Positions 1 to 25,920 of a stretch of 64,000 nucleotides of DNA are shown piece after piece. Under the pieces are notes generated by a model. That model saw only the letters and a list, made by a program, of their open reading frames with translations. It searched no databases and was not told the DNA's origin. Position numbers and translations under genes: made by a program. The stretch comes from Cocleimonas flava (GTDB lineage: Bacteria; Pseudomonadota; Gammaproteobacteria; Thiotrichales; Thiotrichaceae), in contig NZ_SMFQ01000005.1 in NCBI RefSeq assembly GCF_004339015.1, positions 620,001 to 684,000 of the forward strand. The letters run 5' to 3'. Position 1 is the first letter of the stretch. Every line of letters begins with the position of its first letter.

Positions 1-1071
1 TGACTAACTGTTGTTTCAGCCGTGTTATCTGCGGTGGAATCTTCGGTAACAACACCTGAGCCATTTGGACCATAAGCAATCGGTGTCGCTGTGTTGGTTA
101 ACGTGGTTCCTGCATTGATCTGTTCCTGACTGACTGCACGAGTAGCGGTACACGATTTCGTCGCTGTGCCTACTGCCAATGAATCTATCTGGGTTCCATT
201 CGGGCAAACCAGTGCCGAGTCAATATCATCATCAGCAACGGTCAAATTCGTTAACGCCACATTACCCGTATTGGTAAACGTAAACGTATAAGTAATGTTA
301 CCCGGAGAACTGATACTCGCAGGGCTTGCTGTCTTCACCATATTGTAACTGGGTGATTGAGTGATTGATGTTTCAGCCGTGTTATCTGCGGTGGAATCTT
401 CTGTGACAACACCTGTGCCATTTGGACCATAAGCTGTCGGGGTTGCTGTGTTGGTTAAGGTCGTTCCGGCATTGATCTGTTCCTGACTGACTGCGCGAGT
501 AGAGGTACACGATTTCGTCGTCGTGCCTACGGGTAATAGATCTATTTGAGTACCATTCGGGCAATCAAGAACTGAATCAATATCATTATCAGCAACAGTC
601 AAATTCGTTAACGCCACATTACCCGTATTGGTAAACGTAAACGTATAGGTGATGTTACCCGGTGTACTGATACTCGCGGGGCTTGCTGTCTTCACCATAT
701 TGTAACTTGGACTTTGAGCAATAGTAGTTTCAGTGGTGTTATCCGTGGTGGAGTCTTCTGCTGCAAGACCTATTCCATTCGGGCCGTTTGCACTTGGCAT
801 AGCTGTATTTAATAACGGAGTTCCCGTGTTGATCTGTTCTTGAGTAACAACACGAGTTGCGGTACACGACTTCGTTGCTGTGCCTACGGGTAATAAATCT
901 ATCTGGGTTCCATTCGGGCAAACCAGTGCCGAGTCAATATCATCATCAGCAACGGTCAAATTCGTTAACGCTACATTACCCGTATTAGTAAACGTAAAGG
1001 TATAGGTGATACTGCCTGGCTCACTGATACTCGCAGGACTCGCCGTCTTCACCATATTGTATCTTGGCGAT
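1..1071 (-). repeat. Three tandem 357-bp coding repeats
   Basis: Units at about 1-357, 358-714 and 715-1071 repeat with an exact 357-bp (119-codon) period; a diverged, slightly shifted fourth unit follows to about 1420. The unit encodes SPSYNMVKTASPASIS, then a TYTFTFTNTGNVALTNLTV core, a CPNGTQID segment, a CTATRAVSQEQIN segment and an EDSTADNTAET tail. Positions 184-257 and 898-971 are identical over 74 bases, whereas the middle copy differs there, which points to recombination between copies. Confidence 0.85.
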
Positions 1072-7000: not shown

Positions 7001-7973
7001 CGTGTGATGTTGTAAGCGTTTCTTCTGAAGTGATCGTTGTAATCGCAGTGTTAGTGCTGGTTACAGAATCATACCTTTGGGCATCAAAACTGGACGTATT
7101 CGTGATTACATCACTACTACAAGCAGACTCTTCAAGTACGTCTGTTACAAAAGCCTGATAAGAAACGACAACATCGTTATCAACCGCCGTGCCGGTGGCA
7201 TTGACACAATCGACCTTGATAGTTTGGCCGTTTACCGAAGGTACACACCCATTTCCACCTGTAACACTTAACGATCCTGCAACATACTGTAATTGACTTG
7301 GCAAAACATCATTAAACTCAAGGTTTGAAATAGTATTACCATTAGCGATATCTGCCACTAACTGATACGACACCGGCCAACTAGAGCCTGGAGTACTTTC
7401 TCCTTCGTCTGCGCTCATAACCTTTTCAAAGTCCACCAAAGAAGGTGTAACTGAAGTAGTTTCTGTAGAACCAGAAATTGGGCCATTATCACCCGTAGCC
7501 GTATCCCCAAACTGAAAAACAGGTGTGGAAGTAATTGTGAGTTGATCGCCTATAACCACATCATCAGCGATATCTGCACAAACGTTTATATATAAATCTG
7601 GCCCACCTGTAACTATTGAACCTATAGGAGGTTGAATAATTATTAAGCTATTTCCATTCGTCCCTGTGACAGTTTCATTGGTTAATGGATCGATAAGATC
7701 AGGAGGGAAAGTACCTACATTTTGAGTAGAAACTGGGTTATCGAGAAAAGTCGATGAAGAAAATGAAATGCCAGCAGGTAGCTGTAATTGTAAATAAGGG
7801 CCATACCCAACATCACCAGTATTAGCGAGAGAGACATCAAAACAAAACTCTTCACCTGCGAATGAGACTGCGGGAACATCTGAAAGATCAGCCGTAGGTT
7901 CCGGTGCTGCATGAACGATACTTTGAAATGCAAATACAACAAGCATCATCGAGACAACTTTTAACAAGCCCAT
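1..7973 (-). CDS. Giant secreted DUF11-repeat surface protein, 3' end outside window
   Basis: An open frame runs on the minus strand from an ATG at 7973 to the window edge, 2,657 complete codons without a stop, so the C-terminus is missing. The start follows an AAGGG-type ribosome site. Residues 1-22 form a signal peptide (MGLLKVVSMMLVVFAFQ..VHA, then APEP). The rest is a string of beta-rich modules of the DUF11 / conserved-repeat type, recognisable by recurring TYTFTFTNTGN, VTYTITV and ITNTA phrases and DxDxDG-like acid loops. The last three complete modules are about 119 residues each and nearly identical. Family knowledge: such proteins are large secreted or surface-anchored adhesins or matrix proteins. 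The anchoring signal would be in the missing end, so secretion route and function are inferred. Few Cys and no catalytic motif were seen. It stands alone, transcribed away from the ferritin genes. Confidence 0.85.
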   Translation of the reverse strand, partial: MGLLKVVSMMLVVFAFQSIVHAAPEPTADLSDVPAVSFAGEEFCFDVSLANTGDVGYGPYLQLQLPAGISFSSSTFLDNPVSTQNVGTFPPDLIDPLTNETVTGTNGNSLIIIQPPIGSIVTGGPDLYINVCADIADDVVIGDQLTITSTPVFQFGDTATGDNGPISGSTETTSVTPSLVDFEKVMSADEGESTPGSSWPVSYQLVADIANGNTISNLEFNDVLPSQLQYVAGSLSVTGGNGCVPSVNGQTIKVDCVNATGTAVDNDVVVSYQAFVTDVLEESACSSDVITNTSSFDAQRYDSVTSTNTAITTITSEETLTTSHVVMQKSVTPGVAPSYVSPGDSLTYTVNLQTSDFGTVNSLVFNDLLPDGLENFNAVSVTGPTGPLTIVPVVTNNTDGTIGVVYDIHAVSGDLPPASEITIVYTADIAQFYTNPNTPVKANDFLTNSALINYGLVEGASNCSDVSSATVSIRPLALTKEILNAQTEYQPGDVVTFRLTMSIPSGDTSNIVFDDFFPLPVFDVSTLNLAFGSDIRLAASDTLGIVPTNISIDSVANKLSINWPDVSTISPQVLAVDIDIKVGTQPFADNLSLSNLFQASTSNTPTPAAIVNLGLAGIKVGAPVLEITKGVVSSTNSNSVIDAATVPVDSNLIAADASDTITYEITVENIGGAPARSIQVADDLGLPANLLENCSVVSVVNGNGTSLAYSVSPTFNGVINLTDQLEQNDGDPIDGGAPYSTDTALIRIACNVSQAVVANQIITNTSSAVWTSDIGEALFPAVTDDATITISAPEIEKTILTSGTTFTIGDIIRYEITYTVPELTLNDVLLHDQLDPGLAFVNVNTHTIDRSADVTSNTSVFNISNNGRTLDLNLGTVVNSNNDNSQIETIKIAYDVVVVNDTNANAGDTLNNTAIITSTNSSSGNTSADDITILEPNIVVDKTVASGVGPYDAGDTVTYDWHIRQEGTNLTTAYDVILIDTLPSNVTYVANSLQQVSGSCSLIVTDDTTLGVLTATALSFTATDDCHYQYQVVLDVAVTAGVSLNNTVDIDWTSQAGTVAGPISIYNADSCERTSATNPECGSGNDYDVEDSATIDIREVVIKKLSESTSETTTTKAEDRTGTIDLSIGETATYSLTITVPEGTSEEIVVTDNFPANAAVVMEFVSVDSVSIGSSLTTANTPVGVVSDARLGDGILDRVVWDFGKVVNSSIDGIDNNDDNDERIIIVVTGRIVDNVKNTSGDRARNISSISFGPGLTDTSLVALDVVEPLLEINKSSTTTTADAADDVTFTLRVNHSSASTQEAFDLIVTDLIPAGLVYVDGSLQQSTLASCSVMATLDDSDPTVVGINARFDNLPKTDVCELTFDAKLDNSVNPNQIITNTANLQWDSLVADDDANERNYSINDDHQITVSSPGVSKVVFETSEVTSDASVNGLEEDVTIGERVTYRFTATIPEGESNSVIITDQLPNTGVVLRKISSRIVSIGSNLGLTASAGDVGDDCSLANACDSNNDGEPDLAEWNLGTIVNTPDGSNDTNDEIVFGVVAVVTDATVNTGTDDDVVNTAVISFGSGQMVSGSVAIDIVEPKLSISKQATPAASPFIVDAGDVVTFEIEVSHDADSNADAFNIQLIDTLANDGSTTVMQWNGDGNIGGTCIGTVVDSSASGAFPFNVIFDVPTLDTATGSCTITYEVLVDTLATPGQTLQNSVALEYDSTPVFVATETRSSTDNATADVIVSAPSMMVKEVTASSLSDTGQSQHGANLQDLAIGEEVTYTISLKFPEGTTKNVILTDVMPSGTDGVIEMAGPPIVTLGNKVSTSLSDVSVNPANDGFTIDFGTVTNLPDNVDTSDDLISVTVTGVVTDNVSNVDGAQPVNSATFSYTDAASTVQNLTDTAIVDIVEPKMLINKTMTVDNGLATITIDLENTGTASAYDIQIEDVLDLANWDTSQIIPTTVPAGFTLTTVSGPNPTETTVLMTTDDSATAPTNSIEPSETISFVFTVPVQPGISTIDNTATNTISTTVPGSSPNERNEPEVAETETLLIPLIELEKTAAAFSDTNSDGEVGGVGDEITYIFNVKNTGGVDLTNIVVVDTNSAVSISGNPISIAVGGSDNSITGTYEITQEDMDLGTITNTATVTADGPTGTGSTSDVSDDPTDADNVDINGDGEPDDPTIVTLPRNPSFNMEKTTVPSSITVPGIITYVFTFTNIGNIDLTNLAVNDPDIDVNSLVCNGDSDSDGAIDNLAIDGVQTCTAERTISQAQINAGTAITNSATASATDLDGISPVSESDTSDNSTSTPIAQSPRYNMVKTASPASISEPGSITYTFTFTNTGNVALTNLTVADDDIDSALVCPNGTQIDLLPVGTATKSCTATRVVTQEQINTGTPLLNTAMPSANGPNGIGLAAEDSTTDNTTETTIAQSPSYNMVKTASPASISTPGNITYTFTFTNTGNVALTNLTVADNDIDSVLDCPNGTQIDLLPVGTTTKSCTSTRAVSQEQINAGTTLTNTATPTAYGPNGTGVVTEDSTADNTAETSITQSPSYNMVKTASPASISSPGNITYTFTFTNTGNVALTNLTVADDDIDSALVCPNGTQIDSLAVGTATKSCTATRAVSQEQINAGTTLTNTATPIAYGPNGSGVVTEDSTADNTAETTVS

Positions 7974-10160: not shown

Positions 10161-11399
10161 ATGTTCAAAAAAACTTTACTTGTAGCGATCTCAGCATCGT
10201 TACTTTCCCTCGCGTCTTTATCGACCTTGCCTGCTTACGCAAAAGAAGTAAGCAATAAAGAGGTTATAGAGAATTATGCAACCATTGCTTTAGCAGGATT
10301 CAGCGATTCTTTAAACAGCGCTAAAAAACTTAAATTAGAAATAGATGCTTTTGTTGCCAACCCTTCAGAAGCAGGTTTCAAAGCAGCTAAACAAGCCTGG
10401 TTAGCGGCACGTGTACCTTACGGCCAAACAGAAGTTTTCAGATTTGGTAATCCGAATGTTGATGAGTGGGAAGGACAAGTCAATGCATGGCCATTAGACG
10501 AAGGCTTAATTGATTACGTTGCAAGTAACTATGAACACGAAGATGGCAATCAATTTGCCGCTGCAAACATCGTATCGGGAAAAGAAAAAATAGATGCTGC
10601 GTTGCTTAAATCTTTTCATGAAAAAGGCGGCTCTGAAGCGAATGTTGCAACCGGATACCACGCAATAGAATTTTTATTATGGGGACAAGATCTCAATAAA
10701 GACCCTAAATCAGCAGGTACACGAAGCTACACCGATTACGCGAAAGGCAAAGATTGCACCAACGGCAACTGTGATCGTCGCGCTGAATATTTAACGGCTA
10801 CCGCCCAATTACTGGTTACTGATTTACAAGACATGGTCGCTGACTGGCAAGCAGATAAAGACAACTACCGCGCAACATTCATGAAACTCTCTGAAAAAGA
10901 AGCATTACGCAGAATGTTGTTCGGCATGGGTAGTTTAAGCCTGGGTGAATTAGCCGGTGAACGTATCAATGTAGCATTGCTCGCTCACTCTCAAGAAGAT
11001 GAACACTCATGTTTTAGTGACAATACCCATACTGATATTGCCGAAAACGCACGCGGTATTAACAATGTATTTAATGGACGTTACTCACGAATTGATGGCA
11101 CCACCATTAAAGGTGCAAGTCTTGCTCAACTGGTTGAAGCGAAAGATAAGAAGCTAAGTGACTCACTTAAAACCAAGCTGACAACAACCGAAAATAAGAT
11201 TAACGCCATTGTAAAAGCTGCAAATTACGGCGAGCATTTTGATCAACAAATCAAAAGCGAAAACAAAGTGGGCAACGCACGCATTCAAGCGGTGATTGAA
11301 TCTTTACGTAATCAGACTGTTGATATTGAAGCAACGGCTAAGGTTCTTGGCATCAGCAATCTGAATTCTGAAACCAGCGAATCGTTTTCTCAAAACTAA
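10161..11399 (+). CDS. irpA: Imelysin-family iron-regulated periplasmic protein (IrpA type)
   Basis: 412 residues. The signal peptide is about 1-27 (SLSTLPAYA, then KEV). The GxHxxE motif of imelysins is present as GYHAIE at 165-170, followed by FLLWGQDLN. Family knowledge: imelysin/IrpA proteins are periplasmic helical proteins tied to iron acquisition; GxHxxE is a proposed metal site. Two Cys near 195-199 (KDCTNGNCD) might form a disulfide or bind metal. It is followed by two hairpins and then a diheme oxidoreductase and a second imelysin, a common grouping in marine gammaproteobacteria. Confidence 0.88.
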   Translation: MFKKTLLVAISASLLSLASLSTLPAYAKEVSNKEVIENYATIALAGFSDSLNSAKKLKLEIDAFVANPSEAGFKAAKQAWLAARVPYGQTEVFRFGNPNVDEWEGQVNAWPLDEGLIDYVASNYEHEDGNQFAAANIVSGKEKIDAALLKSFHEKGGSEANVATGYHAIEFLLWGQDLNKDPKSAGTRSYTDYAKGKDCTNGNCDRRAEYLTATAQLLVTDLQDMVADWQADKDNYRATFMKLSEKEALRRMLFGMGSLSLGELAGERINVALLAHSQEDEHSCFSDNTHTDIAENARGINNVFNGRYSRIDGTTIKGASLAQLVEAKDKKLSDSLKTKLTTTENKINAIVKAANYGEHFDQQIKSENKVGNARIQAVIESLRNQTVDIEATAKVLGISNLNSETSESFSQN

Positions 11400-11400
11400 A

Positions 11401-11453
11401 CCATTAAAAAGAAACCAGAAAATACCGATTGAAATACATTCTGGTTTTAATGG
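11401..11453 (+). other. Hairpin after irpA
   Basis: CCATTAAAA plus CCAGAA (11401-11420, five extra bases between the two parts) pair with TTCTGGTTTTAATGG at 11439-11453. It begins right after the irpA stop codon. There is no real U-run, so it looks like an mRNA-end or partial terminator structure rather than a full terminator. Confidence 0.5.
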
Positions 11454-11470
11454 TCAATTTTGATCTTGTT

Positions 11471-11498
11471 AAAGTGCTTGAGGAAACTCAGGCACTTT
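11471..11498 (+). other. 12-bp hairpin with GAAA tetraloop
   Basis: AAAGTGCTTGAG pairs with CTCAGGCACTTT (one G-U) around a GAAA loop. GNRA loops are unusually stable. It lies between irpA and the diheme oxidoreductase and has no U-run. It may block 3' exonucleases and so favour irpA mRNA over downstream genes. Confidence 0.55.
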
Positions 11499-11533
11499 GG
11501 CGTTACTGTTAGACCTTGTAAAAGTACTTATAA

Positions 11534-12943
11534 ATGAAAAAAGTTATTCTAGTTGCATCGCTGTTTTTGATGCTACCAAACCTGGCGGAAACCGACCCAG
11601 CATTGTTATTTAATGGCGGAAATAGGTTATCTGGCGGAGAAACAAGCGTTTTTGACACCAGTCATAATGCTTTTTCATTACCTGCGCGCAATCTGGGCAT
11701 ATTAAGGCGTGATAACTTTTTCATAGGTAATGCTTTTTTCAAACAACCTTGGGTAAGCGCACCCGCTTCAACTTCCGCACGCGACGGTTTAGGTCCTTTA
11801 TTTAACATCAATACCTGTCAGGGCTGTCATGTAAAAGACGGTCGAGGCAGACCACCAATTAGTGATGGTGAGTCTCTCATATCAGCACTTGTTCGAATCA
11901 GTGTTCCTGCTAAAACTGATGAGCAAAAAAAAGAAGCCGCAAAAAAAGGCGTAGCAACTGAGCCCAACTACGGAGACCAGTTACAAACCAATGCCATTCA
12001 CGGAATCAAAAAGGAAGGCGATGCAGACATAAAGTATGTCGAAATTAAAGGCCAGTACAGTGATGGTGAATCCTACATTTTGATCAAACCAACGCTTACA
12101 TTGAGCGAATTAAATTACGGTGAATTACACCCTGACAGCTTATTCTCGATACGCACAGCACCTGCAATGGTAGGTCTGGGCTTATTAGAGGCAATCAAAG
12201 AAGAAGATATACTCGCTTTAGCCGATAAGGATGATACTAATTCGGATGGTATATCAGGTCGACCTAACTGGGTCTGGGATGTAAAACAAAAGAAAAAAGC
12301 ACTCGGACGCTTTGGCTGGAAGTCCAACCAACCAACCGTTGAACAACAATCTGCTGGCGCTTTTCTAGGAGATATGGGCTTAACAAGTTCTTTATTTCCA
12401 AATCAAAACTGTTCTGGTGTTCAGCAAAAATGTCAACAAGCCCCAGATGGTGGCAAGCCAGAAGTTACCGACGAAATCTTATCTAAAGTTGTTTTTTACG
12501 CGTCTATGTTAGGCGTTCCCGCACGCAGAGATGTCGACAATATCAAGGTTAAGCTGGGACAAAAGTTATTTACTGATACGGGTTGTGCTAGTTGTCATAC
12601 GAGCCAGTTTACAACCGGCAATTCTGAAAAATTTCCAGAGTTATCTGGGCAAAAAATTCACCCTTATACCGATCTATTATTGCACGATATGGGAGAAGGT
12701 TTAAGCGATAACCGCCCCGATTTTGACGCAGCAGGAAACGAATGGCGCACCCCCCCACTTTGGGGCATTGGTTTGGTTGAGAAAGTAAACAAACACACTC
12801 GATTTTTACATGATGGACGTGCCAGAAACCTGACTGAAGCGATCTTATGGCACGGCGGCGAAGCAAAGCAGAGCAAAGAAAAATTTGCGGCACTGGCGAA
12901 ACAGGAACGAGAAGCTGTCATCGCTTTTCTCAAATCACTCTAA
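11534..12943 (+). CDS. Di-heme oxidoreductase of the DUF1111 / COG3488 family
   Basis: 469 residues with an N-terminal export signal. Two c-type heme sites are seen: CQGCH at 95-99 and CASCH at 351-355. The C-terminal part has the family's WRTPPLWGIGL and HDGRARNLTEAILWHGGEA phrases, which resemble the MauG/di-heme peroxidase family. Family knowledge: DUF1111 proteins are periplasmic putative thiol oxidoreductases or peroxidases that co-occur with imelysins. The reaction is not established; a redox step in periplasmic iron handling is an inference from context. The next gene starts 36 bases later. Confidence 0.88.
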   Translation: MKKVILVASLFLMLPNLAETDPALLFNGGNRLSGGETSVFDTSHNAFSLPARNLGILRRDNFFIGNAFFKQPWVSAPASTSARDGLGPLFNINTCQGCHVKDGRGRPPISDGESLISALVRISVPAKTDEQKKEAAKKGVATEPNYGDQLQTNAIHGIKKEGDADIKYVEIKGQYSDGESYILIKPTLTLSELNYGELHPDSLFSIRTAPAMVGLGLLEAIKEEDILALADKDDTNSDGISGRPNWVWDVKQKKKALGRFGWKSNQPTVEQQSAGAFLGDMGLTSSLFPNQNCSGVQQKCQQAPDGGKPEVTDEILSKVVFYASMLGVPARRDVDNIKVKLGQKLFTDTGCASCHTSQFTTGNSEKFPELSGQKIHPYTDLLLHDMGEGLSDNRPDFDAAGNEWRTPPLWGIGLVEKVNKHTRFLHDGRARNLTEAILWHGGEAKQSKEKFAALAKQEREAVIAFLKSL

Positions 12944-12979
12944 TTTTTTACTTACTTTTCATATCGAAGATCTAATCTC

Positions 12980-14122
12980 ATGAAACTGAATAAACTTGAA
13001 CCAATAAAAATAATAATTCTTAGTGTACTTTTCACAATATGCTGCTTGTTAATACTTTCTTTATTTAAGAACGCCTGGGCAGATAAAAGCAATGCAAACA
13101 CGCCACAACATACGGCAAATATAGAGATAACAAAAGCTGATCGACAAATGCTGCTCAGCTCGATCAGCAAAAATGCGATGCTACCAATTTTTAAAGAATT
13201 GAAACTAGCCAGCAATACTCTGTATCAACAGACACAACAATTTTGTGGCGCAAAGACTGAGGACTCTTTATCAAAATTACGACAATCATGGAATACAACC
13301 GCCAATGCCTGGCAACAAGTTGACAGTCTCGCATTTGGACCAACGACTGACGAAAACATCGATTTTGGCGTGTACTTCCTACCTATCAAAAAAGGCATCA
13401 TCAAAGAATTATTACAACGCGACACACTAAGCAAAAAAGATATTGATGCCGCTGGAGTTGGTGCTCAAGGCTTAGGTGCTTTGGAATACATCTTATTTTC
13501 CAGAGAACAAAGCACAGCCCAAATACTACAAAGTTTTACCGATCAGCCACAACGTTGCGAATACTTACAACTGACCACTGAATTATTAAATGACAATATC
13601 AACACTATCAGCAACCAGTGGGAGCATTACGGCGTCCAGTTTGGTTTAGCAGGAAATAATAGCCTGTATTTTTTAGAGTCATCAGAAGCGATGACCATTT
13701 TAGTCAACAAGCTCTATCAATCGGCACAGAAAGTTTCAAATAAGAAACTAGGACTGCTGGATAGCAAAAACGAAATCAAAAACTCCACACCTTACAAACT
13801 CCATGCATGGCGAAGTGGCGACAGCCTCGATCAGGTTAAAGCTAATATCATCGGAATAAAGCGGATTTTAAAAAACGGTGAAGTATTGCAGTGGCTAAAC
13901 CAGCAAAACAAGCAGCAACTGGCTACAGATCTCGAGCAGTTGATGGATAGTATCGTGCAACAAAAACTGAAAGAGAAAGACCTTTTTGATGCCATAAAAA
14001 CCTCTCCCGAAAGCTTACAACCCTTAGTGTCAAACAGTAAAAAACTCACTGAGTTGATTAAAGCCCAACTTGCGCCTTCATTGGGTGTAGAGCTCGGATT
14101 TAATGACAATGATGGCGACTAA
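12980..14122 (+). CDS. Second imelysin-family protein
   Basis: 380 residues with a membrane-spanning or signal segment at about 8-34 (IIILSVLFTICCLLILSLF..AWA). The imelysin repeat architecture is present. The site equivalent to GxHxxE reads GLGALEYILFSRE, with Gly in place of His, as in the imelysin-like partner proteins that accompany IrpA. Thus it is probably not a metal-binding duplicate but a companion subunit. It lies between the diheme oxidoreductase and a DUF1513 gene with short gaps (36 and 27 bases), so all belong to one operon. Confidence 0.82.
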   Translation: MKLNKLEPIKIIILSVLFTICCLLILSLFKNAWADKSNANTPQHTANIEITKADRQMLLSSISKNAMLPIFKELKLASNTLYQQTQQFCGAKTEDSLSKLRQSWNTTANAWQQVDSLAFGPTTDENIDFGVYFLPIKKGIIKELLQRDTLSKKDIDAAGVGAQGLGALEYILFSREQSTAQILQSFTDQPQRCEYLQLTTELLNDNINTISNQWEHYGVQFGLAGNNSLYFLESSEAMTILVNKLYQSAQKVSNKKLGLLDSKNEIKNSTPYKLHAWRSGDSLDQVKANIIGIKRILKNGEVLQWLNQQNKQQLATDLEQLMDSIVQQKLKEKDLFDAIKTSPESLQPLVSNSKKLTELIKAQLAPSLGVELGFNDNDGD

Positions 14123-14149
14123 TACAACAATATTTGACTATAGAAAAAG

Positions 14150-15322
14150 ATGAATCGTCGTCAATTTACATTATTCGCGCTTGCCTCTGCGTTCACAGGG
14201 GCTGCATCAGCATCCAGTGGCGGAAAAGCTCTTAAGAACATTATTGAGTCGGAGGATAATACTGACCTAAAAAATCATTCGAAAAGCCAGTCTACGGATG
14301 TATTTGGTGCTTATGATGATGAGAATGGTCAGCACTTTGTCACTTGTTTAAACCTCATTGATAACAAACTCAGCGGCGAAAAACTCGATTCATTGCAGAT
14401 TCCTTTTCGCGCGCACGACACCATCCCATTATCAAAAGGTAGGTCGCTATCTTTTGCTCGCAGACCTCATAATCAAATGATTATCAGCGACTTCGCGACA
14501 AAAGAACAACGTATTATTAATGCTAACGAAGGCCGACATTTCTATGGTCATGGCTGCATTGATATTTCCAGAAACACATTGTTTGCCACTGAAAATGATT
14601 ATGACAATGCCAGAGGTGTAATCAGTCTTCGCGATGCTCACAATTTCAAACAGTTAGGCGAATACGAAAGTTGTGGCATAGGCCCTCACGATATTCACTT
14701 AATGCCAGATAACAAAACACTGGTCGTTGCCAATGGTGGAATCGAGACGCATCCAGACTTTGGTCGCCGCAAATTAAATATTAAAACGATGCAGCCTTCG
14801 CTGACCTTTATTGATATTGACTCGGGTAAAAAGATTGATGAGTACCGCCTTTCAAATCATAAACTGAGTATTCGCCATTTAATGGTTACCGCAGATGGCG
14901 GTGTTGCCGTGGGAACACAATATCAAGGGCAACCAATTGATGGCACGCCAGACTATCTGCTCGCATGGATAGATAAAAACACTGACGGCTTGCAAACATT
15001 CGATAATAACAGGCAGTTCACCAAAGATTGCAGAGGGTATATTGCTGATGTCGCCGTTGATACACATGCACAAATCATGGCAGCAACATCCCCTCGTGGT
15101 AACAATGTGAGCTTTTGGAGCATTCCAAATCGGACGCTACTGAAAACAATCGAAATATCAGGCCCCAGTGGCCTTTGTTTCAATTCAAAAGACCAGGAAT
15201 TTCTGGTTTCTAACGACAAGGGTGTTGTTTTTAAAATACCACTCAATTCAAACCAATTTATAGCCACTCAGTTACAGACATTCCCGGTCAAATGGGATAA
15301 CCACATGTACATAAGCGTGTAA
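14150..15322 (+). CDS. DUF1513 beta-propeller-like protein, Tat-exported
   Basis: 390 residues. It starts MNRRQFTLFALASAF, a twin-arginine signal, which suggests folding with a cofactor or partner before export. The body has the DUF1513 phrases: GHGCIDISRNTLFATENDYDN, GIGPHDIHLMPD, VVANGGIETHPDFGR and HLMVTADGGVAVG. These are repeated propeller-like blades with conserved His. Family knowledge: DUF1513 genes are regularly the last member of imelysin/diheme oxidoreductase clusters; no reaction is known. It follows the second imelysin by 27 bases. Confidence 0.85.
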   Translation: MNRRQFTLFALASAFTGAASASSGGKALKNIIESEDNTDLKNHSKSQSTDVFGAYDDENGQHFVTCLNLIDNKLSGEKLDSLQIPFRAHDTIPLSKGRSLSFARRPHNQMIISDFATKEQRIINANEGRHFYGHGCIDISRNTLFATENDYDNARGVISLRDAHNFKQLGEYESCGIGPHDIHLMPDNKTLVVANGGIETHPDFGRRKLNIKTMQPSLTFIDIDSGKKIDEYRLSNHKLSIRHLMVTADGGVAVGTQYQGQPIDGTPDYLLAWIDKNTDGLQTFDNNRQFTKDCRGYIADVAVDTHAQIMAATSPRGNNVSFWSIPNRTLLKTIEISGPSGLCFNSKDQEFLVSNDKGVVFKIPLNSNQFIATQLQTFPVKWDNHMYISV

Positions 15323-17382: not shown

Positions 17383-17741
17383 ACCATCAAATCAATAGCA
17401 CCCAGACTATCGAGCCAAAGGGTGCATGATTACTGTTTTAAAGGCTTTAAAGGCCCCCCCCTACTTATAAGGCTTTTTTCTATCGCTTTATTCAAAGGGA
17501 TGGCCTAGTTATTCTTTTTCATTCTCCCTTGAATGACTTTTTAATCTAGCAATTGAATCCGATTGATCATCAACTTGCGTAATGTGAAATATATGTTAAC
17601 TCTTTAATAAAAGGCATTATTTTGAATAACGCACTTATGACAAATACAATCTCTTCAACGAGCAAAAAAGATAGTGGACGAAGCATAATGTCTTCTATAC
17701 TGTATCGTTATGAAGACTTATATGATTCTCAGGAGGTTGTA
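17383..17741 (+). other. Intergenic region before the ECF sigma gene
   Basis: About 360 bases. It contains C-tract element copy 3 just after the mutarotase gene and then the promoter and leader region of the sigma gene. The sigma reading frame is open upstream to an ATG at 17622, but the AGGAGG site decides for 17742. No confident promoter boxes. Confidence 0.5.
17450..17479 (+). terminator. C-tract element copy 3, after mutarotase gene
   Basis: AAGG, a C8 run, TACTTATAAGGC and six T, about 70 bases after the stop codon and on the coding strand. AAAG-CC and GGCTTT can pair across the C-rich loop. Confidence 0.65.
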
Positions 17742-18335
17742 ATGGGACAAGAGCAAGATCCCTTATCTGCATTACTTAACCGCATAAAAAAGCGCGACGA
17801 AGCCGCTATGGGAGAGTTATACGATTCTACGGTTAAGCGCGTTTATGGTTTAGCGATCAAAATCGTGATTAAACCCGAGCTAGCCGAAGAAGTAGTTGGC
17901 GATGTATTCATGCAAGTATGGAATAAGACCAAGAACTTTGATGGTAAAAAGTCTACACCAATCGCATGGATACTGATGATGTGTCGCAGTCGCGCCTTAG
18001 ACAAATTACGTCGTGAACGACCACAACTGAACAACAATACATACGAGTTAGATCAAAACCTGACGCCAGATTCCGATACCGTGACACCTTACACAGAGCT
18101 ACAAGGTATCGATATATCCAGCCGTATTCATGAAGCCTTGCAGCTCTTGAATGAAAAACAGCGACTGGTGATTACTCTGGCTTTTTATGAAGATATGACC
18201 CAAACAGAAATCAGTGAATACACGGGCGAACCGATCGGCACCGTAAAGTCGAATATTCGCCGGGCCCAGCTGATTCTAAGAGAAACCTTATCCCGCGATG
18301 ATTTTGCAACAGGAGGGATTTATGGCAAAGCATGA
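17742..18335 (+). CDS. ECF RNA polymerase sigma factor
   Basis: 197 residues from the chosen start at 17742, which has a perfect AGGAGG five bases upstream; an in-frame ATG at 17622 lacks one. Region 2 runs from YDSTVKRVYGLAIKI to RALDKLRRERP and region 4 from LNEKQRLVITLAFYE to TVKSNIRRAQLILRE with a helix-turn-helix (TQTEISEYTGEPIGTVKS). The -MTQTEIS- and group features resemble sigma factors paired with ChrR-like cupin anti-sigma factors. The stop codon lies inside the next gene (14-base overlap), so the two are co-translated. Likely autoregulated; no regulon is visible here. Confidence 0.92.
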   Translation: MGQEQDPLSALLNRIKKRDEAAMGELYDSTVKRVYGLAIKIVIKPELAEEVVGDVFMQVWNKTKNFDGKKSTPIAWILMMCRSRALDKLRRERPQLNNNTYELDQNLTPDSDTVTPYTELQGIDISSRIHEALQLLNEKQRLVITLAFYEDMTQTEISEYTGEPIGTVKSNIRRAQLILRETLSRDDFATGGIYGKA

Positions 18336-18828
18336 CACTAAAAACAATGTCCTTGATGACGACGTTCTAGAGATGTTGGCTGAGGCACATGAACCTGTCG
18401 AAATAGATGATAGCGTTGTATTGCGCATGCGTAATAACCTTATGGCAAATATCACTGGCGATAAATCAGCCGTAGCTGAAACTGTGTCTGATAATAAAGC
18501 AGACGCTAGTTTTGATGTAGTCCCCGGTTCTGATACAGAAGGATGGATCGAAGCTTTCCCCGGTGGTAGTTTTAAAGTACTTCATGGAGATGTTAGCAAG
18601 CCCGCATCGGTATTGTCTTACCTTATCAAATTAGAGCCTGGCTTTAATATGGATGGCCACGGCCACCCGTTTGATGAAGAAACGCTTATGCTTGAAGGTG
18701 ATTTAAGTCTGGGAGATATTCATCTCAAAGCCGGTGATTTCCACTTTGCTGCGGCTGGTGCAACACACGGAAAGGTCTATACCAAAAATGGTTGTACCGC
18801 GTTTATGCGAGGCGCACTGCCTATCTAA
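18322..18828 (+). CDS. Cupin protein, probable anti-sigma partner (ChrR-like cupin part)
   Basis: 168 residues from ATG 18322 (AGGAGGG before it), overlapping the sigma gene. A helical N-terminal region (about 1-50) is followed by a cupin barrel. The GHGHPFDEETLMLEG motif (two His and Glu ligands) and the later THGK His give a standard cupin metal site. In ChrR of Rhodobacter an N-terminal zinc-binding anti-sigma domain with His and Cys ligands precedes the cupin; here the N-terminal half has no Cys and only one or two His, so zinc-based control is absent or replaced. Context strongly supports sigma-factor control; the signal is unknown. Confidence 0.78.
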   Translation: MAKHDTKNNVLDDDVLEMLAEAHEPVEIDDSVVLRMRNNLMANITGDKSAVAETVSDNKADASFDVVPGSDTEGWIEAFPGGSFKVLHGDVSKPASVLSYLIKLEPGFNMDGHGHPFDEETLMLEGDLSLGDIHLKAGDFHFAAAGATHGKVYTKNGCTAFMRGALPI

Positions 18829-18989: not shown

Positions 18990-21900
18990 ATGCGTTTAAT
19001 CATTTTTAGCTTATGTTTGGTCTTAGCATCTACGTTACATGCCAACACACTTGAGAGTGGCACCAAAAAACATATTCCGATTTCGATGGGAATTAATCTC
19101 AATGAGCCACAAAGTCAGGTAAATACAGTCACGACCGCACAAATCATGGCCGATTTGGCAAAGACATTCCGCCCTTTTGATGAAAGTATTTTTAACCGCG
19201 TAAAAGAACGTCTGGAAACCAAAGGCGTTGATGCTGTCGACTTCGTTTCTCAGGACCCTGAAGTAAAAAACATCTTTGTTGATGAATACATTGATCATGA
19301 GAATGGGCAGCTATACACCATTAGTCGCGACCTCTCAGATGACCAAAAAGAAAAAGAGGCTTTTTCTCTGAGCCCTTACAAAGAACTGAGTGATTTCAAG
19401 ATTCGAGGCTTGGTTAATCGCTTCGCTCAAAAAAGGTATCGTAGATTTAGTGAGTTCGGAATAACCGTCAATAAAGACAAAACGGTTATCTTGAAAAAAG
19501 GTAGTTACGTTTATACCCGAGGATTGGAATCTGCGATTGTAGGCGATGTCCCTAATGGAGTTTACCCCCTATATTTTAAAGGTGATGTTGAAGTAGATGT
19601 CGAAGGCTTTGCGACTGTTGTAGACTGCCCTGAAAAATACACAACTGCGAACAAGTGTTTGGATATTCAAATCCCTGAAACTCCTTCAGTAGACGGCATC
19701 AAGCTTACCTTTACTGCAAACAGTGATACCTATTTACGAGATTTTCACTTAATCCTGCCGACGGTTAATCATGAAGATGTGCTCAATGGCAAGATTGTAT
19801 TTAATCCTGATTACTTAAAATACATTAAGCCTTTCTCTACATTCAGAGTGATGAATATGATGATCTCATCACCCAAAGCACCTTTTGAATGTGTGACCAC
19901 GTATGTAAAAACTACCGATGTTTATTCATTACCTAAACAGGCATTAGAAGCTGAGTACTTAAGACATCAGGTAAAAATCAGACTATTGGAAATAATCAAC
20001 CAAGCTGATTTACCGCTTGCCGATAACGAGTCCTTGAAAATCGAAGCACTGCTTAAAAACTTTAAAGAGTTCAGAAATGAAGACAATGAGATCTTCTATA
20101 CCGAAGATGAAATAGACTTGACAGAACCAATACTGGGTGAATTACTCGCTCAGGATGATTTCCTCAACATCATGACGCTTGAATACAGAATTCAACAGAA
20201 TAAAGATGCTTTGGAGCCACTCAAAGAGAAACTCGCCGTATTAAGACAGAAGTCACTCGAATACAACTGGAACTATGTCTCACCTAATGAAGACTATGGC
20301 AACTGCTTGATGAAATTTGCACGAACCCCAGAAAACAGAGCGCAATTAAACGACCAGTTTTGGGGGAATTCTTATATAACCCCTGAAGAAAGATGGAGAG
20401 GCTTACCTTACGAAGTCATTGTGGCATTAATCAATGAAACCAAAGCGAATGTTTGGGTAAACATACCGCACAACGCTTCTATTGATTATGTGACAGAGAT
20501 GTCCACATACTTTAACGATAATCTAAACAAAGACTCTCAGATCTTTATAGAGTTAAGCAATGAAGTATGGAACGGAGGCTTCGCCAGCCAAAAATACTTC
20601 ACTGGTCTGGCTAAATACCGCTATGAATATTATGTCACTGAATTTCTGGATCAGTTTGAACACTATTTGAAAACCTCTGATGACAAAGTAGTGACTTATA
20701 GAAATCTGAGAAAGAGCTATTTGACCCACTTTAATCGCTATAAAAAAGAGATTACTCAAGAGCTGGACACTTTCAAATCCTGCAAAAAACAGGACGAATT
20801 ATCAACCTTGGTCAATGGCCTTAGATTTATCAGCGATGGTAAATCCATAAGCGAAATCGAAACATTCATATCAAAAGCATACGACAGTAAAACGTCAATT
20901 CTGAATGAGAAAATTGATTATAAGCTCAAAGATACCGGTTTGAATGTCGATAAGATTACACAAGCTTTATCTCACAACGCTAAAGCCTCAGACTGTGAAA
21001 CTTATGTAGAAAATGACTATCTGGGTAACGATGAATTTATCCAGACAATCAAATATAAAAAGGGTAACTTCTTTGAAAAACTCGCCCGTCAAATCCCGGA
21101 AATGAGTGCTTACTGGCTAGGTTATACCGGTGCAGCCAAGGGTAAATTGAAAATTCAGGTTGAAGATAAAGAAGGCAACTACAAAGACACTTTAGTGGAT
21201 AGATTCAAATACACAAAAGAAAACAAGAACGAATTGCATAGCCCGGATTTGGTGTATCACTATTCTGGTAACGAAATTCGAGACCTGCAAGAGAAGCTGT
21301 TCATAGACTTTAAAGAAGGCTGGAATAAAAGAGCCTTGAGCAGAAAACCATTTGATTTCAATATGAACGCTAAAGTCTACGTTTTGAAAAATCTGGATAG
21401 AGCCTATCAAACGATGGCACAAATGGCGTATGTGGATAGATTAGACCAGATAGCAAAAATCTGGATTGATTCTGGAATCGATGAAAAGAAACTGATATTC
21501 ACTTTAGCAACCAAACAAAATAACCCAAACTTAACGCAATCAATGCTGGAGTACGCGGTCAAGAAAAAATCCATCCAACGGGTTGATGCCATTGCTACCC
21601 CTGCTTACTTTTTTGGATGCTTTGGTGACCTGAAAGTAAAAGACGAAATCATAAAGCCGTATAAATTTGGCCCATGCAAGGGTATTTCAAAAGGCGTGCT
21701 CAATGCCGAAACCCCAGAAGAGATTATTGATATATTAAAAGACCCTAAAAACCCAAAAGGGGTTGAGGCCATAAGAGCAGAGATGATTGCTCACAAAGCT
21801 GTCATCAATAAATCTGACAAAAGAATCCAGCTTGTAGCCTACGAAGGTGGCCATCATCTGGCTATTGCCAACCTTGGCAGAAACCAACGAAAGTATTTTG

Positions 21901-22190
21901 ATAGCCACCCAGAGCTGAAGGTCGAAAAATTAGCCTTATTTAAAGACGCGATAGAAAGCATAGGGATGGGAGAAATCACCAAAGACTTGTATAAAGTCTG
22001 GTTAGAAGAAGATGGCAAACAATTCAATAACTTTTATATGCCGCAATCGTTTCATGAGTGGGGAAGTTTAGGCCTTAGCCTTAGCCTTTCAGACATGAAA
22101 ACCCCAAGATATTTGGCAGCAGATGAATATGCTGGTATTTATGAAAAAGTAGAATTAAAACAAACAGAAAAACCTAAGAAACCACAATAA
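18990..22190 (+). CDS. Large secreted protein resembling a split clan GH-A glycoside hydrolase
   Basis: 1,066 residues, signal peptide 1-18 (LVLASTLHA). I recognise the skeleton of a TIM-barrel glycoside-hydrolase-like family: FRVMNMM near 285, GLPYEVIVALINETKANVWVNIPHNA near 470, IELSNEVWNGGF with N524-E525 (acid/base position in clan GH-A), DAIATPAYFFG near 870 and AYEGGHHLA with E952 (nucleophile position). Between these lie two long charged helical insertions (about 290-465 and 545-800) not expected in a barrel, for example DNEIFYTEDEIDLTEP and the LRKSYLTHFNRYKKEI region. It ends in a Lys/Pro/Glu-rich tail (TEKPKKPQ). No carbohydrate-binding module was seen. Substrate unknown. It is monocistronic between hairpins and a C-tract terminator. 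The enzyme class is an inference from motif order. Confidence 0.6.
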   Translation: MRLIIFSLCLVLASTLHANTLESGTKKHIPISMGINLNEPQSQVNTVTTAQIMADLAKTFRPFDESIFNRVKERLETKGVDAVDFVSQDPEVKNIFVDEYIDHENGQLYTISRDLSDDQKEKEAFSLSPYKELSDFKIRGLVNRFAQKRYRRFSEFGITVNKDKTVILKKGSYVYTRGLESAIVGDVPNGVYPLYFKGDVEVDVEGFATVVDCPEKYTTANKCLDIQIPETPSVDGIKLTFTANSDTYLRDFHLILPTVNHEDVLNGKIVFNPDYLKYIKPFSTFRVMNMMISSPKAPFECVTTYVKTTDVYSLPKQALEAEYLRHQVKIRLLEIINQADLPLADNESLKIEALLKNFKEFRNEDNEIFYTEDEIDLTEPILGELLAQDDFLNIMTLEYRIQQNKDALEPLKEKLAVLRQKSLEYNWNYVSPNEDYGNCLMKFARTPENRAQLNDQFWGNSYITPEERWRGLPYEVIVALINETKANVWVNIPHNASIDYVTEMSTYFNDNLNKDSQIFIELSNEVWNGGFASQKYFTGLAKYRYEYYVTEFLDQFEHYLKTSDDKVVTYRNLRKSYLTHFNRYKKEITQELDTFKSCKKQDELSTLVNGLRFISDGKSISEIETFISKAYDSKTSILNEKIDYKLKDTGLNVDKITQALSHNAKASDCETYVENDYLGNDEFIQTIKYKKGNFFEKLARQIPEMSAYWLGYTGAAKGKLKIQVEDKEGNYKDTLVDRFKYTKENKNELHSPDLVYHYSGNEIRDLQEKLFIDFKEGWNKRALSRKPFDFNMNAKVYVLKNLDRAYQTMAQMAYVDRLDQIAKIWIDSGIDEKKLIFTLATKQNNPNLTQSMLEYAVKKKSIQRVDAIATPAYFFGCFGDLKVKDEIIKPYKFGPCKGISKGVLNAETPEEIIDILKDPKNPKGVEAIRAEMIAHKAVINKSDKRIQLVAYEGGHHLAIANLGRNQRKYFDSHPELKVEKLALFKDAIESIGMGEITKDLYKVWLEEDGKQFNNFYMPQSFHEWGSLGLSLSLSDMKTPRYLAADEYAGIYEKVELKQTEKPKKPQ

Positions 22191-22609: not shown

Positions 22610-23461
22610 ATGTTTATAACGACCAATCCATTCGCACAGTTGAATGCGGAATCCCCTGAAATATTTACCCCCGGCCTTATGCAAGGTTACGTCATTCTGA
22701 TGATTCTTTTTGTTATCGGTGGGACTTTATTTGATGTTTGGCATAAGAAAAGCGCAAAGTACTTTTTTGAAAATGCGGAGAGAGCAAAAAAGAAAGCAAC
22801 ACGCCAATTAGATAAAGCAGAAAGACGTGAACTTCTAGTAAAAACAATTAAAAATGAAGTACTTACTTCTTCAGAATTTTCTAATCAAAAACGTAGACTT
22901 TCACACTTGATGTCAATGTATGGCTTCATTGTTTTTGTTGTAACAACAGCAATCATGATTTTTGGCTATGCAGATGCAGGTAATGACACTCCGGCAATCT
23001 GGCCATTACTGTGGCACCTTGGCGCACTTAGTTTAGCAGCCGGCGGTTACTGGTTCTGGTTTGCGATTCGTGTTGATGTTGCTGCAGAAGGCAAGCCATG
23101 GAATAAAATTGCACCACGAGCTGATATGTTCATCCTGTCATTGCTTGCGATGAGTACTTTCGCACTACTTTGGTCTATCACTAATGGTCTTGGTATTTTC
23201 TTTGTATTATTCATTCTTGCGACAACGATTTTATTCGCTGGTGTAATCTGGTCTAAATTCGCACACATGTTCTTCAAGCCAGCTGCTGCTTATCAAAAGA
23301 AACAAGTTTGGGCTGATGGAAGCCGTGAAGGTTTACCGGATATGCCTGACCTTTCTGATCCTGCTGTTCACGAGAAATTCCCTGATATCCCAACATATAT
23401 GGGTAAAAACCCACCTAATATGGGTGCTGGAATCAGACGCGAACCTGCTCGTCACTATTAA
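22610..23461 (+). CDS. aprM: Adenylylsulfate reductase membrane anchor AprM
   Basis: 283 residues. There are about five hydrophobic segments (near 24-42, 105-122, 130-155, 175-195 and 198-218), separated by a charged Lys/Arg-rich loop at 50-90. The C-terminus is hydrophilic and Pro-rich (PDMPDLSDPAV, NPPNMGAGIRREP). Family knowledge: in many sulfur oxidisers such as Allochromatium, AprM anchors AprBA to the membrane and connects APS oxidation with the quinone pool or another redox partner. The order aprM-aprB-aprA matches that type. aprB follows after 66 bases. Confidence 0.88.
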   Translation: MFITTNPFAQLNAESPEIFTPGLMQGYVILMILFVIGGTLFDVWHKKSAKYFFENAERAKKKATRQLDKAERRELLVKTIKNEVLTSSEFSNQKRRLSHLMSMYGFIVFVVTTAIMIFGYADAGNDTPAIWPLLWHLGALSLAAGGYWFWFAIRVDVAAEGKPWNKIAPRADMFILSLLAMSTFALLWSITNGLGIFFVLFILATTILFAGVIWSKFAHMFFKPAAAYQKKQVWADGSREGLPDMPDLSDPAVHEKFPDIPTYMGKNPPNMGAGIRREPARHY

Positions 23462-23527
23462 TACTGATTCATTAATCGTTCTATAACGTTCAATAATTAG
23501 TTAATAACAATTTAAAGAGGATTTATT

Positions 23528-24010
23528 ATGCCAACTTATGTACATATGACCCGCTGTGATGGTTGTGGTGAGTGTGTTGATATTTGTCCATCAGATATCA
23601 TGCATATCGACACAGATATTAGACGCGCTTATAACATAGAGCCTGATATGTGTTGGGAGTGTTACTCCTGTGTTAAAGCTTGTCCACATAATGCAATTGA
23701 TGTTCGTGGCTATGCAGACTTTACCCCGCTAGGAAGTTCTGTGCGCGTACGTCGTGACGAAGAGAAAGGTGTTATTGCCTGGAGAATCATCTTCCGTAAC
23801 GGTCAAAAAGACTGGGATCTTATTGCGCCAATTACAACCAAGCCCTGGGGCTCTGGATATGACGATCTTAGAGCGGTACCAGCTCCTGAAGACAGCATGC
23901 GTAATAGTGAATTGCTATATAAAGAACCTAAGTATGTTCGCTTTGATGAAGGTGGATTACACGACCTAAACACCAATAAATTGGTTATGAAAGAAGGAGT
24001 GTATTACTAA
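23528..24010 (+). CDS. aprB: Adenylylsulfate reductase beta subunit AprB
   Basis: 160 residues. Two [4Fe-4S] clusters are bound by Cys10, 13, 16, 20 (RCDGCGECVDICP) and Cys42, 45, 48, 52 (CWECYSCVKACP), the expected ferredoxin-like arrangement. The C-terminal tail (from about 110) wraps around AprA in known structures. It transfers electrons between the AprA FAD and the membrane partner. Its final base is the first base of the aprA ATG, i.e. translational coupling. In this context the enzyme oxidises sulfite plus AMP to APS. Confidence 0.95.
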   Translation: MPTYVHMTRCDGCGECVDICPSDIMHIDTDIRRAYNIEPDMCWECYSCVKACPHNAIDVRGYADFTPLGSSVRVRRDEEKGVIAWRIIFRNGQKDWDLIAPITTKPWGSGYDDLRAVPAPEDSMRNSELLYKEPKYVRFDEGGLHDLNTNKLVMKEGVYY

Positions 24011-25920
24011 TGGCTTCGTATAAAACAATTGTTGAAGACAATATTGATGTTCTTGTTGTAGGTGCTGGTTTAGGTGGCACAGGTGCTGCTTTTGAAGCGA
24101 GATACTGGGGCAAGGACAAAAAAATTATTATTGCTGAAAAAGCAAATATTGACCGTTCTGGTGCTGTAGCACAGGGTCTTTACGCGATTAACTGTTACAT
24201 GGGAACGCGTTTTGGCGAGAACAACCCGGAAGATCACGTACGCTATGCACGTATGGATTTAATGGGTATGGTTCGTGAAGACTTGCTATTTGATATGGCG
24301 CGTCACGTTGACTCGGCTGTTCATCAGTTCGAAGAATGGGGCCTACCCATTATGCGTAACGAAAAGTCTGGTACCTATCAGCGTGAAGGTCGTTGGCAGA
24401 TTATGATTCACGGCGAGTCATACAAGCCAATCGTTGCTGAAGCTGCAAAGAAATCAGCCGACAAGGTTTACAACCGTGTCTGTGTGACTCATCTACTTAT
24501 GGATGACAACACTGAAAACCGTGTTGGTGGCGCTGTTGGTTTTAACGTTCGTACTGGTAACTACCACGTATTCAAATCTAAAACGGTTATTGTTGGTGCG
24601 GGTGGCGCGTCAAATATCTACAAGCCTCGTTCAGTTGGTGAAGGTGCTGGTCGTGTATGGTACGCACCATGGTCATCAGGTTCTGCTTACGGTCTATTGA
24701 TCGAAGCCGGCGCAAAGATGACGCAGATGGAAAACAAAATCGTTCTGGCTCGTTTTAAAGATGGCTACGGTCCGGTTGGCGCTTACTTCTTGCACCTTAA
24801 GACGTATACGCAAAACGGTAACGGCGAAGAATATGAATCAAAGTGGTTCCCTGCACTATCCAAGATGGTTGGTAAAGAATATCTGGATACTGAAGGACAG
24901 CATTTATCTCATAAGCCAATCCCAACCTGTTTACGTAACCACGCATTCATTAATGAAGTTAATGCAGGTCGTGGCCCGATTTACATGGTTACAACAGAAG
25001 CATTCCAGGATCCGCATTTAGAAGAAATCGGCTGGCATAACTTCCTCGGCATGACGGTTGGTCAAGCGGTTCTTTGGGCGGCAACTGATGTTGATCCTAA
25101 ATACGAAAACCCAGAGCTAACAACGTCTGAGCCTTACGTAATGGGTTCTCACGCAACGGGTTGTGGCGCATGGTGTTCAGGCCCTGAAGATATTTCTCCG
25201 GATGAGTACTTCTGGGGTTATAACCGTATGACTACGGTACAAGGACTATTCGGTGCAGGTGATGCTGTTGGTGGAACGCCTCATGCATTCTCATCAGGTT
25301 CTTTCACTGAAGGTCGTTTGGCTGCTAAAGCCGCTGTTAAGTACATCAATGATGGAAAAGGCGATGGTATCTCTATCAACGATTCTCAAATCGAGAAACG
25401 CAAAGAGCAGATTTACCAGCCACTAGAAACCTACAAGATTTATCGCAACCACATTACTGCTGGTACGGTAAACCCTCACTACATCAACCCTAGACAAGGC
25501 CTTGACCGTCTACAAAAGTTGATGGATGAGTACTGCGGTGGCGTAACTGTTAGCTATATGACTAACGATAATCTACTCAACATCGGCCTTAAGAAGCTTG
25601 GTCTTCTTGCTGAAGATTGGGACGGCGGAATTGCTGCAAAAGATATCCATGAGCTACTGCGCGCATGGGAACTTAAGCACCGCATCCTGACATCTGAAGC
25701 AGTTATACAGCACACTCTCTTCCGCGAAGAGACTCGCTGGCCTGGTTACTACTACCGTGGTGACAAGATGAAGCTAGATGATAAAAACTGGCATGTACTA
25801 ACTGTTTCACGTCGTGATCCTGAAACTGGCGAGTACACACTGGAAAAAGCGCCGCTTTATCATCTAATCGATGAAGCAGACGAAAAGAAGCCAACTAAAA
25901 AGAAGAAAGCAGCTGCTTAA
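24010..25920 (+). CDS. aprA: Adenylylsulfate reductase alpha subunit AprA
   Basis: 636 residues, normal length. The N-terminal FAD-binding motif is VLVVGAGLGGTGAAFEARYWG. Other typical segments are NIDRSGAVAQGLYAINCYMG, WYAPWSSGSAYGLLIEAG, SHATGCGAWCSGPED and FGAGDAVGGTPHAFSSGSFTEGR. Family knowledge: the FAD protein converts APS and sulfite/AMP. The C-terminus is a short Lys/Ala tail (KKPTKKKKAAA). No sat gene (ATP sulfurylase) is seen nearby, so the next step is encoded elsewhere. A strong terminator hairpin follows at 25948. Confidence 0.97.
   Translation: MASYKTIVEDNIDVLVVGAGLGGTGAAFEARYWGKDKKIIIAEKANIDRSGAVAQGLYAINCYMGTRFGENNPEDHVRYARMDLMGMVREDLLFDMARHVDSAVHQFEEWGLPIMRNEKSGTYQREGRWQIMIHGESYKPIVAEAAKKSADKVYNRVCVTHLLMDDNTENRVGGAVGFNVRTGNYHVFKSKTVIVGAGGASNIYKPRSVGEGAGRVWYAPWSSGSAYGLLIEAGAKMTQMENKIVLARFKDGYGPVGAYFLHLKTYTQNGNGEEYESKWFPALSKMVGKEYLDTEGQHLSHKPIPTCLRNHAFINEVNAGRGPIYMVTTEAFQDPHLEEIGWHNFLGMTVGQAVLWAATDVDPKYENPELTTSEPYVMGSHATGCGAWCSGPEDISPDEYFWGYNRMTTVQGLFGAGDAVGGTPHAFSSGSFTEGRLAAKAAVKYINDGKGDGISINDSQIEKRKEQIYQPLETYKIYRNHITAGTVNPHYINPRQGLDRLQKLMDEYCGGVTVSYMTNDNLLNIGLKKLGLLAEDWDGGIAAKDIHELLRAWELKHRILTSEAVIQHTLFREETRWPGYYYRGDKMKLDDKNWHVLTVSRRDPETGEYTLEKAPLYHLIDEADEKKPTKKKKAAA

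Follow-up and report, generated by a model that had tools for sequence, protein, structure and literature searches.

The open reading frame at 18990..22190 (+) of the window, the whole 64,000-nucleotide stretch of Cocleimonas flava DNA analysed here, raises the question whether a protein whose two putative catalytic glutamates are hundreds of residues apart can still form a single glycoside hydrolase barrel, what the intervening sequences are and on which polymer it might act. A first-pass annotation, made from the sequence alone, had described it as a clan GH-A-like enzyme split by two long helical insertions. The frame is indeed intact, with an ATG start and 1066 amino acids followed by a stop. 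It contains all the motifs quoted there, FRVMNMM (285-291), GLPYEVIVALINE, NEVWNGG (with E525), DAIATPAYFFG and AYEGGHHL (with E952), and the confirmed distance between E525 and E952 along the sequence is 427 residues. Its parts are the following.

18990..19043 (+), putative signal peptide, residues 1-18, judged by eye
19044..19787 (+), N-terminal part, residues 19-266, from the AlphaFold2 model and conserved with relatives; it holds barrel strand 1 (32-38) and a beta-sandwich-like block with strands within 190-255, residues 80-185 being of low confidence
19788..19862 (+), block 1, residues 267-291, with strand b2 (284-288) and R286, from the model; R286 in 63/63 relatives
19878..20324 (+), insert 1, residues 297-445, modelled as mostly helical at low confidence; missing from relatives without the subfamily architecture
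20325..20615 (+), block 2, residues 446-542, with b3 (487-492), b4 (518-522), H494, N524 and E525, from the model and conservation
20562..20564 (+), codon of E525, predicted acid/base, in 63/63 relatives; role assigned from clan GH-A
20616..21425 (+), insert 2, residues 543-812, modelled as mostly helical at low confidence; otherwise only in two orthologs
21426..22124 (+), block 3, residues 813-1045, with b5-b8 (835-840, 867-874, 947-955, 1011-1014), from the model and conservation
21843..21845 (+), codon of E952, predicted nucleophile, in 63/63 relatives; role assigned from clan GH-A

Predicted fold and described glycosidases

The structure prediction proposed as a check in the first-pass annotation gives one barrel spanning the inserts, and a core of the clan GH-A (beta/alpha)8 type is well supported by this prediction. 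The AlphaFold2 model, built from the protein and 35 relatives, 33 of them from IMG/VR and two orthologous, has a mean pLDDT of 60.5 with 488 residues below 50, the block means of the core being 79-96 (471-540), 85-95 (811-870) and 72-94 (901-1060). The eight barrel strands listed above were assigned by us from this model. The beta-sandwich-like block (190-255) lies between b1 and b2, insert 1 comes after b2, and insert 2 has a helical stretch of the b4-b5 connection on either side. Both inserts are mostly below pLDDT 50 in the full model, and insert 2 folded alone with one ortholog has a mean pLDDT of 40. Foldseek alone found no match at E <= 0.001 (best 0.0016, with low TM-scores). VIA-align applied to its list places a GH51 enzyme first (Z 24.0, 3.7 A over 320 residues, model range 30..1062), followed by GH39, GH5 and beta-glucuronidase/heparanase (GH79) entries at Z 20-22; in this ranking, rows that differ by no more than Z 1 count as ties, and glycoside families missing from the rows are not thereby excluded.

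In clan GH-A the acid/base glutamate is preceded by an asparagine at the end of b4, the nucleophile glutamate lies at the end of b7, and the catalytic carboxylates are about 5 A apart. The model places N524-E525 directly after strand b4 and E952 inside strand b7, both as in this clan. Twelve positions are invariant in 63/63 relatives (the 67 rows of the tree described below minus three insert-bearing proteins and one partial row): R286, N482, W489, E521, N524, E525, W527, N528, Y873, Y951, E952 and G954. All twelve are kept in the three insert-bearing proteins, as is H494, present in 55/63. The clan GH-A-like barrel suggested at first is thus borne out in the predicted model, by E525 after b4, E952 in b7 and the VIA-align score.

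By predicted fold and residues the protein is best described as clan GH-A-like, and it is not filed here under GH39, GH51 or GH148. The GH51 arabinofuranosidases 6zt9 and 2vrq give the highest structural scores for the core (Z 24.0 and 23.8), but they are 12% identical to the protein and carry no inserts, and having a fold in common does not establish function. The protein has no GH51 Pfam match such as ASD1_dom, and its genome no PF22848 match at E <= 1e-10. For GH39, the comparison is with PslG of Pseudomonas aeruginosa, described in PMC11912335 as an endoglycosidase with a signal peptide that acts on the cell's own exopolysaccharide Psl, with Glu165 as acid/base and Glu276 as nucleophile. 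Both are of clan GH-A type with a signal peptide (in our case a predicted type and a signal peptide judged by eye), but the PslG glutamates are 111 residues apart against 427 here, and PslG belongs to GH39, whose Pfam model the protein does not match. The genome gave no PF01229 (GH39) match at E <= 1e-10, hhalign against a very small GH39 alignment of four sequences gave no match, and GH51 and GH39 Pfam matches each number 0/75 in class-level genomes. Literature searches with the motif strings returned only an unrelated match. No phage depolymerase paper combining TIM barrel and clan GH-A was found, and neither Cocleimonas nor Leucothrix was named among the matches listed for glycoside hydrolase, polysaccharide or sheath. 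The accessible parts of the papers on GalNAc-targeting glycosidases (PMC11087588) and on domain insertion (PMC13114784) offered no closer link to the protein.

The family and its possible substrate

The protein itself gave nothing in a Pfam scan up to E 5 beyond one sub-threshold Allexi_40kDa match, and no match in NCBIfam or, by phmmer, in the PDB. In the members scanned, no model from Pfam, NCBIfam or PHROGs covers the family's core either, and family profiles searched against the PDB found no relative of the core. Some members carry recognisable side domains: CBM9 in L063 and L071, Big_6 in L062, a putative Ig domain in L142 and, at the N-terminus of L043, a stretch that matches SslE/AcfD below threshold.

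The family is multi-copy in Thiotrichaceae. It occurs in 37/57 genomes searched, namely 36/36 of the same taxonomic family (our own included) and 1/21 others, and the C. flava genome (4.49 Mb) encodes ten distinct members at E <= 0.001, the present protein counted. At E <= 1e-10 it was found in 9/274 genomes of the class, two of the nine belonging to the same family, and it occurs in 5/249 genomes of the phylum, our own counted. The closest named relative is L021, from an uncultured Cocleimonas (85% identity); L022 is a gene fragment from a MAG named Thiotrichaceae. On plasmids, 31 records match one paralog and 25 of them hold the core, since the other six match only the C-terminal residues 723-901 of that paralog; these six bear xylanase-type annotations and look CBM9-like.

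Relatives were also found in at least 145 viral contigs of IMG/VR, of which 80 were kept. Three IMG/VR family queries gave no match in GenBank phages, and the viral members scanned have no PHROGs family over the domain. At five of the seven IMG/VR loci whose neighbours were scanned (L097, L116, L120, L139, L142) the gene is near phage head, packaging or connector genes; of the other two, L128 gave nothing and L108 a weak tail-fibre match. The IMG/VR members are candidates for virion-linked polysaccharide depolymerases.

A function read from the surroundings of the gene itself was rejected: the ortholog in G022 has other neighbours. Those downstream (22610-25917), which we take by eye to be aprM, aprB and aprA, are the same in the window and in the Cocleimonas relative. 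Directly upstream (17637-18825, +), a sigma-70-type regulator with regions 2 and 4 overlaps a ChrR cupin-like protein; this ECF sigma/anti-sigma-like pair is farther from the gene in the Cocleimonas relative. The paralogs in the genome are scattered among unrelated genes, two of them in tandem, and neither they nor the present gene lie in a polysaccharide-biosynthesis cluster. Elsewhere in the window, a surface-protein-like frame of more than 2657 amino acids with DUF7507 and DUF11 domains runs off the edge (3-7973, -) and includes a 357-base tandem repeat in 3 copies (12-1073). Four genes form a run at 10161-15322 (+), the second encoding a DHOR di-haem oxidoreductase and the other three, by eye, imelysin-type iron-uptake proteins. 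A tRNA-Gly called by ARAGORN at 35244-35327 (-) lies inside a 315-amino-acid frame on the opposite strand (34436-35383) and is probably a false call.

The neighbourhoods of relatives in other bacteria provide indirect support for a surface or matrix polymer as the target. Among the 25 core-holding plasmid records, 16 neighbourhoods were viewed (4-9 kb of flanking DNA, in one case a stretch of 45 kb), four of them without annotation. By raw count, six of the 12 annotated ones are clear polysaccharide-biosynthesis regions: Shinella zoogloeoides, Roseobacter denitrificans, R. litoralis, Rhodobacter CZR27 and two Thioclava. As the two Roseobacter are kin, and likewise the two Thioclava, they amount to about four independent cases. 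The remaining six comprise one with a single sugar-nucleotide gene, one with a lone glycosyltransferase and four with neither. These neighbourhoods are at most suggestive of a self-made polysaccharide. We consider it moderately probable that the gene encodes a secreted retaining clan GH-A glycosidase with two gained inserts that remodels the surface or matrix polysaccharide of its own cell.

It is unlikely, though conceivable, that the enzyme is active on a foreign polysaccharide used for nutrition, or on another glycan. Such a substrate would be consistent with the half of the annotated plasmid neighbourhoods that show no clear polysaccharide-biosynthesis region, with the annotation of one plasmid relative as a family 16 glycosylhydrolase and with the CBM9 of some members. 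CBM9 is a domain known from xylanases, and the PDB matches of one family profile (A1) are the CBM9 of xylanases. The other half of these neighbourhoods argues against it, and the C. flava genome has no GH5 cellulase-type match, which fits a lithotroph and not a degrader.

The two inserts and the subfamily that carries them

Relative to the family, the inserts are real additions. Insert-free relatives align to the protein in three blocks with little between them (148-301, 433-536 and 814-1034 for L043). The net gain over relatives is about 130-150 residues for insert 1 and about 250 for insert 2, so that the two inserts of the first-pass annotation stand and its sizes, about 175 and 255 residues, give way to these values. 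Smaller additional stretches are found in the N-terminal part (at about 66-97 and 99-160), and the Cys-bearing PGGIC..C loop of the family is absent at about 258-262, as it is from all three insert-bearing proteins. Among 112/124 sequences in which both motifs were matched (12 were dropped, one motif being missed by the pattern; near-duplicate IMG/VR records and the protein itself are included), the spacing between the two glutamates has a median of 159 and a 5-95% range of 143-223. It exceeds 300 in only four: the protein (427), its two orthologs (417 and 427) and the phage protein L120 (420), whose additional sequence is unlike that discussed here. Twenty more relatives show spacings of 146-196.

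Insert 2 has strong matches in three of 63 genomes of the family (G000, G007, G022), four others giving E values of 0.05-0.53 only, and none was found in viral contigs. Among the frames at hand, insert 1 matches only the protein and its two orthologs. In G005 there is a 158-residue gene fragment at a contig end. In G006 (L079, 2927-3250, -), a 108-amino-acid open frame is about 64% identical to residues 825-922, with another short match to 1038-1059 and no further significant match close by; it looks like a decayed remnant of an insert-bearing gene. Neither insert matches any family searched, in agreement with the first impression that they have no recognised family. A Pfam scan of insert 2 alone found no carbohydrate-binding module; spectrin-like and Allexi_40kDa matches below the cut-offs were rejected as identities and taken to reflect helical composition.

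The closest described case is EngU of GH148. According to PMC5725463, this GH-A barrel has a CBM4 of about 131 residues between b4 and a4, which sets the catalytic E239 and E581 apart, and the barrel still works. The present protein also has its putative catalytic glutamates split by an insert in the b4-b5 connection, but EngU carries one recognisable module and this protein two inserts matching no known family. The Pfam scan of insert 2 alone found no CBM4 of this kind between b4 and a4, and the EngU motifs INNEN and VTEYN, as described there, set it apart from NEVWN and YEGG.

In a tree of 67 rows (a quick method with SH-aLRT support only, inserts removed before building), the three insert-bearing proteins form one clade with support 100, which supports the new subfamily that had been proposed. 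The stem of this clade, with 2.3 changes per column, is the longest inner branch, and the clade groups with the insert-free Thiotrichaceae paralogs L043, L044 and L055 (support 84). These paralogs belong to the same family and have the same catalytic residues, but neither insert is present in them, the Cys-bearing loop is retained and their N-terminal parts are longer. The tree therefore suggests that the inserts arose on a single branch, during a burst of change after which evolution was slow. Departures common to the three proteins at columns at least 85% conserved include F53M, W141L, G200V, V508F, L516S, Y522L, Q955H, Y997T and G1008D, and a Trp next to 447 (60/63 relatives) is lost. Because these shared departures lie on such a long stem, function may have shifted in the subfamily.

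One such shift would be that the barrel no longer cleaves, the subfamily being a carbohydrate-binding or scaffolding protein of unchanged fold with the inserts as its new working part. The length of the stem, changes near the active site such as Q955H and Y522L, and two large additions, one in a loop expected at the active-site border, are in line with this, but every invariant position, both glutamates included, is kept in the three proteins and evolution of the core is slow, with an omega of about 0.03 relative to the 85% ortholog. We regard it as improbable.

Against the same ortholog, identity and omega are 87% and 0.03 for the N-terminal part, 92% and 0.02 for block 1, 93% and 0.03 for block 3, 85% and 0.04 for insert 1 and 75% and 0.08 for insert 2. 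These omega values are rough because dS is 1.6-2.2, near saturation; block 2 is 90% identical with saturated dS, and values against G022 were not computable. Judged from this one comparison, core and inserts appear to be under purifying selection. There is accordingly little likelihood that the inserts are filler, disordered for the most part or neutral, with no role of their own, a reading consistent with their low pLDDT and with the variable middle part of insert 2. The low omega and the identity of both inserts to the ortholog, together with their retention in a second genus (59% for insert 1, 56% for insert 2), argue against it, and low pLDDT is expected since only two or three sequences are available for them. 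A frame error or chance gene fusion is ruled out as the source of the inserts because the two orthologs hold both in one open frame.

A proposed remodelled barrel

The best reading is thus that the gene would represent a new variant in an uncharacterised family of clan GH-A-like glycosidases. The predicted enzyme would be secreted, periplasmic or extracellular, and would act by a retaining mechanism with E525 as acid/base and E952 as nucleophile. The most likely task of the family would be to trim or remodel polysaccharide of the surface or matrix of its own cell, in the way that PslG acts on Psl. Insert 1 would have been gained in the connection after b2, in a loop expected to border the active site, and insert 2 within the a4 region of the b4-b5 connection. 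The two modules probably alter how substrate gains access, or attach the enzyme to a partner or a surface, and leave the barrel unbroken. More tentatively, the core may correspond to an unrecognised clan GH-A family that edits exopolysaccharides and is common to EPS-making bacteria and uncultivated phages, where head and connector genes are its neighbours; here, two helical modules with a new fold would have been grafted on the barrel, giving a differently addressed or regulated matrix-remodelling enzyme.

The family is present in 36/36 Thiotrichaceae genomes of one sample, in alphaproteobacterial polysaccharide loci and beside phage head genes, and none of Pfam, NCBIfam and PHROGs covers its core in the members scanned. 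Once an activity is assigned, many proteins now labelled hypothetical would gain an annotation, and an enzyme of a new kind that cuts matrix or capsule might come of it. The subfamily offers a clear, predicted case of a split GH-A barrel and, because both insertions lie on one branch, the effect of the inserts is directly testable against the insert-free paralogs.
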